From: Aridibacter famidurans
Lineage (GTDB): Bacteria; Acidobacteriota; Blastocatellia; Pyrinomonadales; Pyrinomonadaceae
Assembly (NCBI GenBank): GCA_024103495.1
Contig: JAGFIQ010000179.1
Span: 1 to 64,000, forward strand
Direction of reading: 5' to 3'
Length of the DNA: 64,000 bases
Shown: piece after piece, positions 4,841 to 63,726 of the stretch
Layout: the number at the start of each line of letters is the position of its first letter
Position numbering within the stretch: position 1 is the first letter of the stretch
Position numbers and translations under genes: made by a program
The notes under the pieces: generated by a model
What the model was told of the DNA's origin: nothing
What the model saw: the letters and a program-made list of their open reading frames with translations, nothing else
Databases searched by the model: none

Positions 4841-5419
4841 TCAATGGTCACCGATCATCGAGCAATGGAGGAACGCACGCGTCCCGACCCGCAAGGACTG
4901 AGAGGAAAGGACTGAGGACTGAGAACCGCGTCGCGTCAGCGACAGCATTAACTTAGCCGTGACCTTCAGGCCACGGTGACAGCGTCGATGTTTTTCAGCC
5001 GCGTAGCGGCGTGCGGACCGGCCGTCGCTACGCGACTCCTGATCTCGCCACGGGTCGATTGCCACAGACATGTCGCTCCTACAGAGCTAAGATCTCTCGG
5101 CGGTTTTCCGTGCTATTAACATGACGCGCCTACGGCGCTGCGGACGCGAAGGGTAACAGGAGGCCTGGAGCATCGATCATTGCCCAATGCTCATTGACCA
5201 ATGCGCATTGACCATTGACCATTTACAATTGACCAATGCCCATCGATCATTGACCAATGAATAGCTCCGTAGGAGCGACATGTTAATAGCATTCGGTTCG
5301 CGTCCGGCACCTGAGCTCCGTAGGAGCGACATGTCTGTAGCAGGCGGCACGAATCGGTACCCGGAACGCAAGCGACGGGCCCAATCGGTACCCGGAGCGC
5401 AAGCGACGGGCATAAACAA
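4841..5419. repeat. Repeat-filled spacer with four repeat types
   Basis: The order is: AGGACTGAG phrases (4895-4920); composite hairpins GTCGCGTCAGCGAC, CCGTGACCTTCAGGCCACGG, GCCGCGTAGCGGC and GTCGCTACGCGAC (4925-5040); and an 'ACAT-GTCGC' hairpin doublet in + orientation (5064-5140). Next comes a run of CATTG/CAATG blocks (5175-5260), the same doublet inverted (5263-5345), and two copies of a 'CCGGAGCGCAAGCGACGGGC' phrase (5358-5412). The doublet copies in opposite orientation bracket the CATTG array. No gene is supported. Confidence 0.8.
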
Positions 5420-10742: not shown

Positions 10743-11404
10743 GACGGTCGGGCCGTTGCTACGGGACCTGGGGTCTTTCTTGGGTTTCGTTGCTACAGAC
10801 ATGTCGCGCTTACGGCGCTAAGATCTCTTTGCGGTTCTGGCGGCTATTAACATATCGCGCCGATGGCGCTAGAAAGGCGATGCGACCCAGCGGACTGACC
10901 GTCGCGTAGCGACAGCATTAGCTTAGCCGTGGCCTTCAGGCCACGGGCGTCGGGCCCTTCCAATTGTCAGCCGCGTCAGCGGCGTCGCGACCGGCCGTCG
11001 CTACGCGACTCGGGGTCTGTATTGGCTTTCGTTGGTACAAATGTGTCGCTCCTACGGAGCTCAAGAGCGTATGGTGACCCGACTAGCTATTAACATGTTG
11101 CGCCCATGGCGCAAGCAAGGCCAGAGGATCCGGCTGACTATCAACATTTTGCGCCTATGGCGCAAATCATTGGTCAATGTTCATTGGGCAATGAAGAATC
11201 AAAGCCCTTCCGCTCGCGTTCCGGATCTACGCCCGTGCCTACGCACGATCTGTTGACACCTCATACCTCATATCCACCCAATCCCCGATCCCGCTCTGTT
11301 GATCCCGATCAATTTCCCACTTTTCTTGTCCTGATCCGAACCGCTTTTCCGCTTCACTTTATGGAAATAATTTCTATAATCCATCCCTCGTGTAAGGAGC
11401 AAAA
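10743..11404. repeat. Long repeat-filled spacer (660 bp)
   Basis: Contents: the 'ACAT-GTCGC' doublet (10792-10872); composite hairpins (GTCGCGTAGCGAC at 10903, CCGTGGCCTTCAGGCCACGG at 10926-10945, GCCGCGTCAGCGGC at 10971, GTCGCTACGCGAC at 10999); and a second, extended doublet with three hairpins (11034-11165, the last two being GCGCCCATGGCGC and GCGCCTATGGCGC). CATTG/CAATG blocks follow at 11168-11192. The last 120 bp (11280-11404) are repeat-free, turn AT-rich (11345-11380), and end in TAAGGAGCAAAA, so the promoter of the next gene probably lies there. Confidence 0.8.
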
Positions 11405-13612: not shown

Positions 13613-14135
13613 GGAATCTGAATTCATTGATCATTGCCCATTGAACGATGAATCGCTCCATAGGAGCGCGATGTTAATAGCATTCGGCCGACAGGCAATT
13701 CTTAAGCTCCGTAGGAGCGACATGTCTGTAGCACGCGCAGTCCCGAAATTACCCCGAGCCGCTTCAGCGGCGACAGATCGGATCAACCGCAGAGGCGCGA
13801 AGACGCAAAACTCAGAACATTCGCAACCGCGTCGCGTAGCGACAGAATTAGCTTAGCCGTGGCCTTCAGGCCACGGGTGGCGAGACAAAGCCAGCCCCAG
13901 CCGCGTCAGCGGCGTCGCGACCGGTCGTCGCTACGCGACTCGGAAATTCCATTTGGGATCCGATTCTACAGACGTGTCGCGCCTACGGCGCTCAGAAGGG
14001 TCGGGCGGTCTTGCAGGCTATTAGCATTTCGCGCCGATGGCGCTGAAATCAAGTGACTTTCTTGCTCTGTGTTCTCTGTGGGCTCTGTGGTGATTTCCGA
14101 GAACCCGGGCGGGCACAGGTCCCGCCCCTACAGAA
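13613..14135. repeat. Repeat-filled spacer between convergent genes
   Basis: Contents: CATTG/CAATG blocks (13624-13650); an inverted 'ACAT-GTCGC' doublet (GCTCCATAGGAGCG at about 13655, CTCCGTAGGAGCG at about 13706); GCCGCTTCAGCGGC (13761); a CCGCAGAGGCGCGAAGACGC phrase (13786); composite hairpins (13812-13945); a + strand doublet (13968-14046); and a CTCTGTGTTCTCTGTGGGCTCTGTGG phrase (14063-14088). The 12452 and 14136 genes converge here. No T-run terminator was found, so the hairpins may do that work. Confidence 0.75.
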
Positions 14136-18017: not shown

Positions 18018-18652
18018 TGGGGACTATTGGAAATGCGGGTAAATAATGGGGGAAAAGAGGTTAAAAGGCAAGAAATCAGTCTCCAATTGTCAGGCATCAA
18101 GGATCAAGGAACACAGTTTAGATCGGTGCCTTGACCTGCGTCGATCGCGAAGCGCGAACTCTGGCAGACATCGTGAACCAAGGCGGAAACGCGACCGTCA
18201 GGGAGCGAGCCGATCACCAAGACGGTAGCCGTCCGGATCACGCAATCGCTTCGCGATGCGCGGAAGATGCGACGCCTACCGTGGGTTCCGCTTCGCTCCA
18301 CCCACGGCTAAAAGCAGGCCGTCGCTGCGCGACTACAGACATTTGGCTCCTACGGAGCCGGGTATCTCGAGGATGCCTGTTGCTATCAACATTTCGCGCC
18401 GATGGCGCTTTTCAGTGGTCAGTGGTCAATTCGCATTGGTCAATGGTCAATGAGCATTGGTCAATGAAAGCATCCGTGTCTATCTGTGTCCGATTTCTCT
18501 CTGCGTGCTCTGCGATCGATTTCACGGCCGCTTGGCGGTGCTTTCACGGGAAGGGTTCGCGCGATGGGCTCAATGCCCGCGGGACACGGGCGTTCCGATC
18601 GTCCCGCCGATGCAGCGCAGAGCGCTGCTCTAAACGGCTCACTGCTCACCGC
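18018..18652. repeat. Repeat-filled spacer (635 bp)
   Basis: Contents: a CGATCGCGAAGCGCG hairpin phrase (18141-18155); ACCGTCAGGGAG phrase (18197); CGCAATCGCTTCGCGATGCG (18241-18260); a composite hairpin of variant type (CCGTGGGTTCCGCTTCGC at 18289, closing with CCACCCACGGCTAA, then GTCGCTGCGCGAC); a doublet (GGCTCCTACGGAGCC at 18345 and GCGCCGATGGCGC at 18397); and CATTG/CAATG blocks (18413-18466). A GTGTCTATCTGTGTCC phrase lies at 18476-18492. The last 150 bp have no clear repeat. Confidence 0.75.
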
Positions 18653-34970: not shown

Positions 34971-35583
34971 GCGAAAAATGAAGTATTGAGGACGGGAGAC
35001 CGAAAACAGGAGACGGGGGACCGGAAGGGTCCGTTCGGTAGCAGGCGCGCCGGCGAAGATCACGTCCGGAATTCGCTCCGAGCTCCGGGGGCCCATTGCC
35101 CGCGGTAGCCCGCGCTGACGCTTGGGCTTCGGACACAGCCGTGCGACATCGGACACGGCTGCGATGACGCTTGGGCTTCGGACACAACCGAGCGACATCG
35201 GACACGGCCGTGCGACGAATTTCTTTAGTGTATTGGGGGGGGCGTGCTCGAGCTCCAGGTTCCAGGTTCAAAGTTCCAAGGAAGGAGGCAGACGGTACCG
35301 ATCCGAATCACGCAACCGCTTCGCGATGCGTTGACTATTCATCGCGTTCCGTGGGTTCCGCTTCGCTCCACCCACGGCTAATTGCAGGCCGTCGCTTCGC
35401 AACTCATGAGCGGGTATGCGGATTCGCGTGCTACAGACCTGCCGCGCCTACGGCGCTGGGCTCGGTGATGAAAGTACCGAATCCAACTTTATCGTCAATT
35501 AGATCGAGGGATCTTCCGCAAACACGGCAAACTCGCTAAACTCAGCACTCAGCACTCATCACTCATCACTCAGTCCTCAGTCC
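34971..35583. repeat. Repeat-filled spacer downstream of pilC
   Basis: Contents: a GAGACCGAAAACAGGAGACGG phrase (34997); two tandem units of about 50 bp (35109-35217: GACGCTTGGGCTTCGGACAC, then GACATCGGACACGGC); CCAGGTTCCAGGTTCAAAG (35255-35275); CGCAACCGCTTCGCGATGCG (35309-35328); a variant composite hairpin (CCGTGGGTTCCGC...CACCCACGGCTAA at 35351-35382, then GTCGCTTCGCAAC); and one 'ACA-CCGC' hairpin unit (GCGCCTACGGCGC, 35441-35459). CAGCACTCAGCACTCATCACTC runs at 35547-35585. No gene is supported. Confidence 0.7.
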
Positions 35584-46708: not shown

Positions 46709-46999
46709 GTCTTAAAAGAGGACAAACAGGATAGGCAGGATAACAAGGATGGCGGGATGACCAGTGTCCGGTGCGACCGGCTTCGTTTGGTAAGATCAAG
46801 TCTCGAGTACCCGCAAGCGTGCGAAGCACGCGGTACAATCCAGCTCCACGCGTGAGCGTGGAGAACCAGACGAAGCGATTCGATAGCGTGCAAAGCACGC
46901 GGCACAAACCAGCTTCACGCGTGAGCGTGGAGACCGGCACGGAGCTGATTGACAATTTGAGAGAAGACAGCCGCCTCATTCGGCTGAAGGCAAGTAGAT
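46709..46999. repeat. REP doublets upstream of the transposase (inverted relative to downstream array)
   Basis: Two units at about 46805-46865 and 46878-46935. Each has hairpin 1 (GCGTGCGAAGCACGC or GCGTGCAAAGCACGC), a 13-16 nt linker with CAGCT, then hairpin 2 (CACGCGTGAGCGTG). The reverse complement of the downstream units (47438-47780) matches this order, so these face the other way. A short CAGGATAGGCAGGATAACAAGG phrase lies at 46729-46750. The transposase ATG at 47000 follows 60 nt later. Confidence 0.85.
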
Positions 47000-47437
47000 A
47001 TGTCCCACACAAACCTCGTCTACCATTTCGTTTTTGCGACCAAAGGTCGCATTCCATTCATCACCGATGATCTGAAGCCTCATCTTCACAGATATCTCGG
47101 CGGTACGGTAAAACGGCTCGGTGGAACCGCATATGCCGTGAACGGCATGAGAGAACACGTACACCTGCTTGTCCGCCTTAAGACCGTACACCGACTCGAC
47201 TATTTCGTAAGGGATCTCAAATCGAACTCGTCAAAGTGGGCCAAGGGCCGAACAAACGGTCGTTTTCAGTGGCAGCGCCGATTCGGTGCATTTACCGTCA
47301 GTAGATCACAAATGGCGGCAGTCAGGCGATACATTGAGAACCAGGAAAAGCACCATTCGCGGATGAGCTTTCGGGAAGAGTACGAGGAAATCCTTCGCGC
47401 GAACGGGATCTCGACCGAGTACATTTGGAACGACTGA
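47000..47437 (+). CDS. REP-associated tyrosine transposase (RAYT; IS200/IS605-like Y1)
   Basis: A 145-residue Y1 HUH single-strand transposase. It opens 'NLVYHFVFATKGRIPFI' in the Y1_Tnp pattern. The HUH motif is HVH (H53, H55) in 'GMREHVHLLVRL', the 'WQRRFGAFTVS' strand follows, and the catalytic tyrosine is probably Y111 in 'VRRYIENQEKHH'. There is no TnpB gene. Single-copy, flanked on both sides by REP doublets in opposite orientation, and lacking IS-like subterminal ends of its own, it fits the RAYT class that recognises and disperses REPs rather than a free IS200 element. No strong ribosome site was seen. Confidence 0.88.
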   Translation: MSHTNLVYHFVFATKGRIPFITDDLKPHLHRYLGGTVKRLGGTAYAVNGMREHVHLLVRLKTVHRLDYFVRDLKSNSSKWAKGRTNGRFQWQRRFGAFTVSRSQMAAVRRYIENQEKHHSRMSFREEYEEILRANGISTEYIWND

Positions 47438-47805
47438 TCCGGGCAGTCTACACGCTCACGCGTGTAGCTGACGTGTTTCGCGTGCTTCGCACGCTGGCGA
47501 TTCGTGGCGCGCTTCCCTACACGCTCGCGCGTGTAGCTGATATGTTTCGCGTGCTTCGCACGCTGGCGATTCGTGGCGCGTTTCCCTACACGCTCGCGCG
47601 TGCAGCTGATATGTTTCGCGTGCTTCGCACGCTACTGAATACGTCCTTCCCTATCTACACGCTCACGCGTGTTGCTGGAGTATTTCGCGTGCTTCGCACG
47701 CTGGCGAATGGATGCGTTCCGCTTCTACACGCTCACGCGTGTAGCTGGTATTTTTCGCGTGCTTCGCACGCTGCCGAATTGGCCCGACGTCACTCCGACA
47801 TTTTA
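47438..47805. repeat. Array of five REP doublets downstream of the transposase
   Basis: Five units of about 65-70 bp between about 47445 and 47780. Each has ACACGCTCACGCGTGT (or CTCGCGCG variants), then GCTGA-T/C-GTGTTTC, then GCGTGCTTCGCACGC and a variable 15-30 nt tail such as GGCGATTCGTGGCGCG. Units 1-3 share the GGCGATTCGTGGCGC tail, showing tandem duplication. Orientation is opposite to the upstream units. The array ends 25 nt after the stop of the DoxX gene, which reads towards it. Confidence 0.88.
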
Positions 47806-48273
47806 CTAATCCTGTCCATCCTGTTTGTTCTTCCTCAACCCGAAATACCAAACCCACGCGATGAAGAAGATCTGAAGCGGCACCCGGAACAGCAAGTACC
47901 AGGGGCCGTACGAGGTTCCCCCGATGCCCTCGGATTTGAGACTCCCGGCGATGTTCGCCGGCAAGACCGCGACGAAAAAGACGATCAGCAAAACCGATGT
48001 CAGCCTGACCACTCTTGGCCAAAGCAGGCCGATCACGGCAGCGAACTCACACGCGCCAGTGAGCCAGACCACCTCGCGTTTGTACGGCATAGCCTCCGGC
48101 ATCATCTGCACCATCGCCTCGGTGCTTGTGAAATGCGCGATCGTGGTCACGAGAAGCATCGCCGCCATCGCGCCCCGGCCTGTCATCGAGAGTCCGAGCT
48201 TTCCTTTGATCACAGCACGATCGATCGCGAACAACACGAAAAAGGCGACGAGTAGGACGACTAACGGGACCAT
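47806..48273 (-). CDS. DoxX-family membrane protein
   Basis: A 155-residue inner-membrane protein with four spans (about 2-20, 36-58, 66-105 and 128-147). The pattern 'RGAMAAMLLVTTIAHFTSTE', 'MVQMMPEAMPYKREVVWLTG' and 'ACEFAAVIGLLWPRV' is that of the DoxX/DoxD-like family, whose members act in quinone-linked redox or oxidative-stress complexes. The exact role is unknown. CAGGAGCAAATCC precedes the ATG at 48273. It converges with the RAYT region and diverges from dapF at 48378. Confidence 0.82.
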   Translation of the reverse strand: MVPLVVLLVAFFVLFAIDRAVIKGKLGLSMTGRGAMAAMLLVTTIAHFTSTEAMVQMMPEAMPYKREVVWLTGACEFAAVIGLLWPRVVRLTSVLLIVFFVAVLPANIAGSLKSEGIGGTSYGPWYLLFRVPLQIFFIAWVWYFGLRKNKQDGQD

Positions 48274-63357: not shown

Positions 63358-63726
63358 AATGTTTCTCCTCGGTCACGATTCGGAATTCAGGATCCGTATG
63401 ACTGTTACGCGGTCTGACCTGTGTCTTTCATTCCGCCGCTAATGCGGCTCGATAATTACGGGCGCCTTTGTACCGTGGGTGGCGCCCTTCGGGCTTACCC
63501 ACGGCTAAATGCATATGACCGCTACGCGGTCGCCGGTCTTCTGTCTTCTGTTTTCCATTCCGCCGTTAAAGCGGCTCGATAACTCGATAATTGGGGGCGC
63601 CTTTGAACCGTGGGTGGCGCCCTTCGGGCTTACCCACGGCTAAATGCATATGACCGCTACGCGGTCGGTTATGCCCGTCGCTAGCGCTCCGGGTTCCGAT
63701 TTGTTCGTCGCTTGCGGTCCGGGTTC
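63358..63726. repeat. Repeat-filled spacer with two copies of a composite unit
   Basis: Two copies of about 130 bp (63433-63540 and 63560-63670). Each contains a GCCGCTAATGCGGC-type hairpin with CTCGATAA, then CCGTGGGTGGCGCCCTTCGG ... TTACCCACGGCTAA, then GACCGCTACGCGGTC. The unit then gives way to 'CCGTCGCTAGCGCTCCGGG' and 'GTCGCTTGCGGTCCGGG' near 63675-63725. This is the same composite as at 60600. Confidence 0.8.

Follow-up and report, generated by a model that had tools for sequence, protein, structure and literature searches.

A Y1 transposase gene between inverted arrays of paired hairpins

The locus lies at positions 46709-47805 of a 64,000-nucleotide stretch of Aridibacter famidurans DNA (the window, by which we mean the whole stretch analyzed; its genome is designated G000 in our comparisons). 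It consists of a Y1 HUH transposase gene set between two upstream and five downstream copies of a REP-like doublet, an arrangement first noted in a preliminary description of this DNA. The coordinates of its parts are:

46719..46761, + strand: outer AACAGGAT-type arm, probably outside the element, in intergenic sequence (one half of an inverted pair)
46814..46864, - strand: upstream REP doublet U1 (H2 at 46817-46831)
46883..46933, - strand: upstream REP doublet U2 (H2 at 46886-46900, with a single loop change)
47000..47437, + strand: Y1 HUH transposase, 145 aa (Pfam PF01797, 3e-24; NCBIfam IS200 model; motifs)
47447..47497, + strand: downstream REP doublet D1 (H1 at 47448-47467, 12-nt linker, H2 at 47480-47494)
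47516..47566, + strand: downstream REP doublet D2 (tail in common with D1)
47585..47635, + strand: downstream REP doublet D3
47654..47704, + strand: downstream REP doublet D4
47724..47774, + strand: downstream REP doublet D5
47789..47831, - strand: outer arm, partner of 46719..46761 (ATCCTGT repeats adjoining the DoxX gene, ancestral)

In most copies of the doublet the first hairpin, H1, reads CTACACGC-TCAC-GCGTGTAG with an 8-bp stem, and is followed after 12 nt by H2, GCGTGC-TTC-GCACGC. The stem-to-stem linker is 12 nt in all doublets, and successive downstream doublets are spaced at 69, 69, 69, and 70 nt. The preliminary description had rightly recognized two unlike hairpins at constant spacing, but its linker of 13-16 nt was too long, and the second hairpin that it named is larger than claimed (8 bp). 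Matches to the H2 motif GCGTGCTTCGCACGC with up to two mismatches number 7 in the window; shuffled sequences gave an expectation of 0.34 (maximum 3). Both H1 and H2 are predicted in silico to fold on either single strand (z of -2.5 to -3.8), and compensatory change is seen at two helix positions in a comparison that includes a relative's copy.

The upstream set is, as had been described, the reverse complement of the downstream set, with arms of 117-121 nt that are 76-78% complementary over two units; with two inverted REPs upstream and five downstream, the gene has the flanking by two or more inverted REPs that is expected of a canonical RAYT. Read on the strand that places the tag 5' of the hairpin, CAG precedes most H1 and many H2 copies; the tag in the window is CAG or CCAG, and not the tetranucleotide GT[AG]G. 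A common tail of the downstream doublets had been taken as a sign of recent tandem growth. This tail is shared over its whole length only by D1 and D2 and is less extensive in the other downstream doublets, and recent tandem growth is plausible for that pair.

The outer AACAGGAT arms were considered as candidate ends of the element and discarded, as the right arm, with its ATCCTGT repeats, adjoins DoxX in a genome of the same genus (G002) from which the unit is absent. Because the right arm exists there without the unit, the outer inverted pair (46719-46761 and 47789-47831), made up of short tandem repeats, consists at least partly of ancestral intergenic sequence; the sequence after the M28 peptidase gene in G002 loosely resembles the left arm.

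A transposase of the IS200-like class

The preliminary description assigned the gene to the RAYTs as known from gamma-proteobacteria and Pseudomonas, and this assignment does not hold. The window protein, a clear Y1_Tnp match, passes the NCBIfam IS200 model (NF033573; 59.5 bits, cut-off 55) and fails the RAYT model (NF047646; 27 bits, cut-off 80). Its motifs EHVH, WQ, and YIENQEKHH give the signature Y---Q--HH, shared by almost all relatives in which the motif can be read; the class 2 signature Y---NP is absent from the window protein, which has YIENQ at this point. The IS200 model picks up 60/60 family members at E <= 0.001, the RAYT model 38/60, with weak scores. Solved IS200-type transposases (PDB 2fyx, 2ec2, and 2f4f) are related to the window protein in sequence, and no tnpB adjoins its gene.

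The genome carries seven Y1 copies, the other six being 34-49% identical to the window protein, and the maximum identity among own-genome copies of the gene is 79%; no close copy of the window unit was found in this genome or in same-genus genomes. The motif set, the length of ~145 aa, and the low identity among the seven copies point to TnpA-Y1 subclass 1.2, an assignment made by motifs and NCBI models, with a tree that holds no reference RAYT or IS200 protein. Quentin et al. (2018) describe subclass 1.2 as having Y---Q--HH, ~148 aa, and a low number of diverged copies, and report it mostly from Cyanobacteria and Bacteroidetes (PMC6006769). Purifying selection, seen only in sibling gene pairs, is strong (dN/dS ~0.01-0.08).

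Inverted flanking repeats across subclass 1.2

The same survey lists subclass 1.2 as "REP: no"; its automatic REP search demanded GT[AG]G 5' of the hairpin (PMC6006769). We scored the flanks of each gene by local alignment and counted an inverted pair at a score of at least 25, a simple threshold though the contrast is large: inverted flanking repeats occur at 60 of 74 same-class loci (81%) vs 7 of 451 other genes, all from the own genome, that served as controls (1.6%), and mismatched flank pairs reached the same score in 1% of cases. A clear inverted pair is missing at 14 of the 74 class loci. In other phyla 25 of 40 loci have such flanks; by group, the counts are 12/23 in Bacteroidota, 5/7 in Poribacteria, and 3/3 in other Acidobacteriota. 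Subclass 1.2 is clearly REP-associated, contrary to its published classification. A universal GTAG tag was rejected, GTAG being enriched 5' of the repeats (14 of 62 related loci vs 11 of 400 control segments) yet far from general. At four loci (L059, L085, L090, and L100), long direct repeats with alignment scores over 300 stand on either side of the gene and represent composite tandem arrays.

Correspondence between transposase and repeat

Among 2701 pairs, flank repeats are common to 65% of those with protein identity >60% and to ~1% of those below 45%. The seven Y1 copies of the own genome have separate hairpin repeat sets, of which only those of the two most similar siblings are related. 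Allowing one mismatch over 22 nt, the window H1 was found in only 4 of the 162 class genomes: at the window locus, beside homologues in G022 and G028, and in a solo doublet in G082. The CTACACGC/GCGTGTAG stem is present with different loops at the homologues in G082 and G084, both of them beside a downstream gene that seems to be the one found in G028.

The H1 stem is kept next to homologues 50-55% identical to the window protein in four other genomes. Unrelated doublets in genomes carrying close homologues, which the preliminary description had named as fatal to its reading, are therefore not what is seen. The five proteins flanked by the H1 stem form a single clade (support 96/68; 98% of bootstrap trees; 0/500 label shuffles). 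Because G022 conserves H1 while its H2 differs, H1 may be the specificity part of the doublet. The earlier view of a transposase with its own cognate inverted REP-like doublets is upheld in this part; protein-REP co-variation and solo doublets in relatives are likewise supported.

Doublets away from the gene

By pattern searches, good doublet copies in the own genome lie only at the window locus. A covariance model overturned the conclusion that no copies exist elsewhere: beyond the seven doublets at the locus, it detects three diverged ones in other parts of the genome. In relatives, it matched G002 four times (once at an H2 remnant), G006 once, and G003 once, marginally. The cognate REP of the window, at 7 copies at the locus and 3 diverged ones, is not abundant genome-wide, and confinement to the surroundings of the gene, which had also been held to count against the original reading, largely describes this doublet. 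The solo doublet in G006 stands between two genes, carries compensatory changes, and lies ~2 kb, by gene order, from the position of the unit in G000.

Doublets without a transposase gene occur in the own genome (in the sibling families) as well as in relatives. Counted in a 421-kb sample of the own genome, ~87% of which is in ORFs, the sibling REP families occupy 31 dispersed places, 24 of them outside ORFs. The window itself contains dispersed REP-like units that match the flanks of the other six Y1 genes, mostly outside ORFs (131-158, 239-266, 1082-1136, 1253-1307, 4923-4976, 10899-10946, 13830-13876, 18239-18359, 35309-35405, 63472-63531, and 63607-63666). The REP arrays of a sibling Y1 gene at L007 (943-1052 and 2317-2461) are bordered on both sides by 7-nt tandem repeats of the TTGGTCA type.

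Insertion history and whole-unit copies

In the same genus the genes run lipoprotein, M28 peptidase, DoxX (those without a Pfam match were named by inspection), with a solo doublet in G006 and the H2 remnant in G002 between lipoprotein and M28. In the window (46709-47805), M28 is missing, and lipoprotein and DoxX have the Y1 unit between them; the 421-kb sample of the own genome holds one weak M28 match elsewhere. Where the unit sits in G000, G002 has an intergenic spacer of ~70-90 nt, but G002 differs also by the presence of M28, and no exact empty site for the window unit was obtained. As the loss of M28 and the gain of the unit go together, the precise course of insertion is beyond reconstruction from the genomes compared, which are partly drafts with assemblies broken at repeats.

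Whole units are seen in multiple copies in other genomes. G008 has three, with 87-91% nucleotide identity, at unrelated sites; their similarity begins and ends at the outer hairpins CAACCC-GAA-GGGTTG ... CAACCC-TTC-GGGTTG, GTAG stands ahead of the inner hairpin, and a little sequence beyond the left hairpin is common to two of the three copies. A similar trio of whole-unit copies occurs in G004. The flanking genes of one G008 site are found without the unit in G035, which we considered as an exact empty site and rejected; the gap there is filled by other sequence and does not support precision of insertion. A sibling Y1 gene (L004/L179), 99% identical in protein and ~93% in nucleotide sequence between G000 and G002, lies by flank matches on different sides of a neighboring gene in the two genomes, which suggests a local hop.

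Proposed mechanism and alternatives

We consider it probable that the locus is a REPtron-like element whose enzyme is an IS200-like TnpA of subclass 1.2. In a mechanism modeled on TnpA-REP and IS608 (PMC8266576), the transposase would recognize its cognate H1 (the CTACACGC/GCGTGTAG stem and, 5' of it, a short xAG tag) as single-stranded DNA; the tag would pick the cut site, and the tyrosine would cut next to the H1-linker-H2 doublets, with the strand re-joined by HUH/Tyr chemistry. Doublets would thereby be copied or moved, mostly locally, building arrays by local amplification, with occasional dispersal of solo doublets to intergenic places. Relatives show the doublet-gene-doublet unit as a whole to have entered new sites, its ends formed by the outer H2 hairpins. 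Binding and cleavage, like the choice of strand and of recognition hairpin, are inferred. A search of the accessible literature found neither biochemistry for subclass 1.2 nor recent literature on REPs associated with it. Local accumulation near the gene is on record for Marinomonas and other RAYTs, where it was read as recent arrival (PMC2817692, PMC8266576).

The view taken in the preliminary description, that of a canonical domesticated RAYT/REP system in another phylum, we now regard as unlikely. It would account for the inverted REP arrays, species-specific hairpins, low copy number, low inter-copy identity, and protein-REP co-evolution, all of which are known of RAYTs (PMC2817692), but it is at odds with a protein that scores far below the RAYT cut-off in a family matched more fully by the IS200 model, with the presence of Y---Q--HH in place of Y---NP (PMC6006769), with a window doublet that lacks high-copy dispersal, and with the duplication of whole units in G008 and G004. 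The sharp edges of those whole-unit copies, the passing of the IS200 protein model, and the sibling on different sides of a neighboring gene in G000 and G002 would all be expected of an IS200/IS605-like insertion sequence with unusual inverted and duplicated ends, its solo doublets being MITE-like derivatives. We find this quite unlikely too: IS200 has non-inverted subterminal hairpins and near-identical copies, whereas the copies here are at most 79% identical, each with its own repeats; no tnpB is adjacent; and doublets are found without the gene.

That the hairpins are bystanders, either terminators or target sites found near many genes and without functional link to the transposase, would fit their intergenic location and the ancestral repeat in part of the surrounding sequence, but is highly improbable given how rarely control genes have inverted flanks in comparison with the class loci and given that the repeats follow the protein clade. 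Returning to the REPtron-like element, we raise as a real if tentative possibility, which we would not yet favor outright, that subclass 1.2 TnpAs are an independent REP-propagating lineage drawn from the IS200-like class and not from the known RAYT class, and that a unit still inserting whole may be a living intermediate between insertion sequence and domesticated RAYT.

If most subclass 1.2 members carry doublets of their own, then REP systems arose in the IS200-like class as well as in the RAYT-like one, and a likely source enzyme could be named for many of the palindromic intergenic repeats in Acidobacteriota, Poribacteria, and Bacteroidota. With units that still move whole beside units that only scatter hairpins, the passage from insertion sequence to domesticated transposase would be open to direct test.

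Comparison with known systems

The closest counterpart of the protein is TnpA-Y1 subclass 1.2 itself, with which it shares Y---Q--HH, WQ, H[VI]H, a length of ~145-150 aa, few and diverged copies, and an IS200-like core; that subclass was reported without REPs, whereas most members here have inverted hairpin arrays (PMC6006769). With IS200/IS605 elements (IS608, ISDra2) it has in common the sequence relation to solved IS200-type transposases and the Y...Q motif, but the locus differs from them in having no tnpB, inverted and not same-strand hairpins, and no near-identical copies of the window unit. TIRYTs (Di Nocera et al. 2013) also have inverted repeats flanking a Y1 gene (PMC3733652), but they belong mostly to subclass 2.1 and have HTH tails, and their terminal inverted repeats are not typical hairpins (PMC6006769).

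In organization, the locus can be set beside the REPtron, or RAYT with BIMEs, in which a Y1 gene likewise lies amid inverted palindromes, with gene-specific REPs and co-evolution, and in which REPs accumulate locally near the gene in Marinomonas and other marine gammaproteobacteria (PMC2817692, PMC8266576). It departs from that model in having a class 1 protein where REPtrons have class 2 (PMC2817692, PMC8266576), a tandem doublet of two different hairpins, an xAG tag in place of strict GTAG, whole-unit copies in some genomes, and little dispersal of the window doublet.
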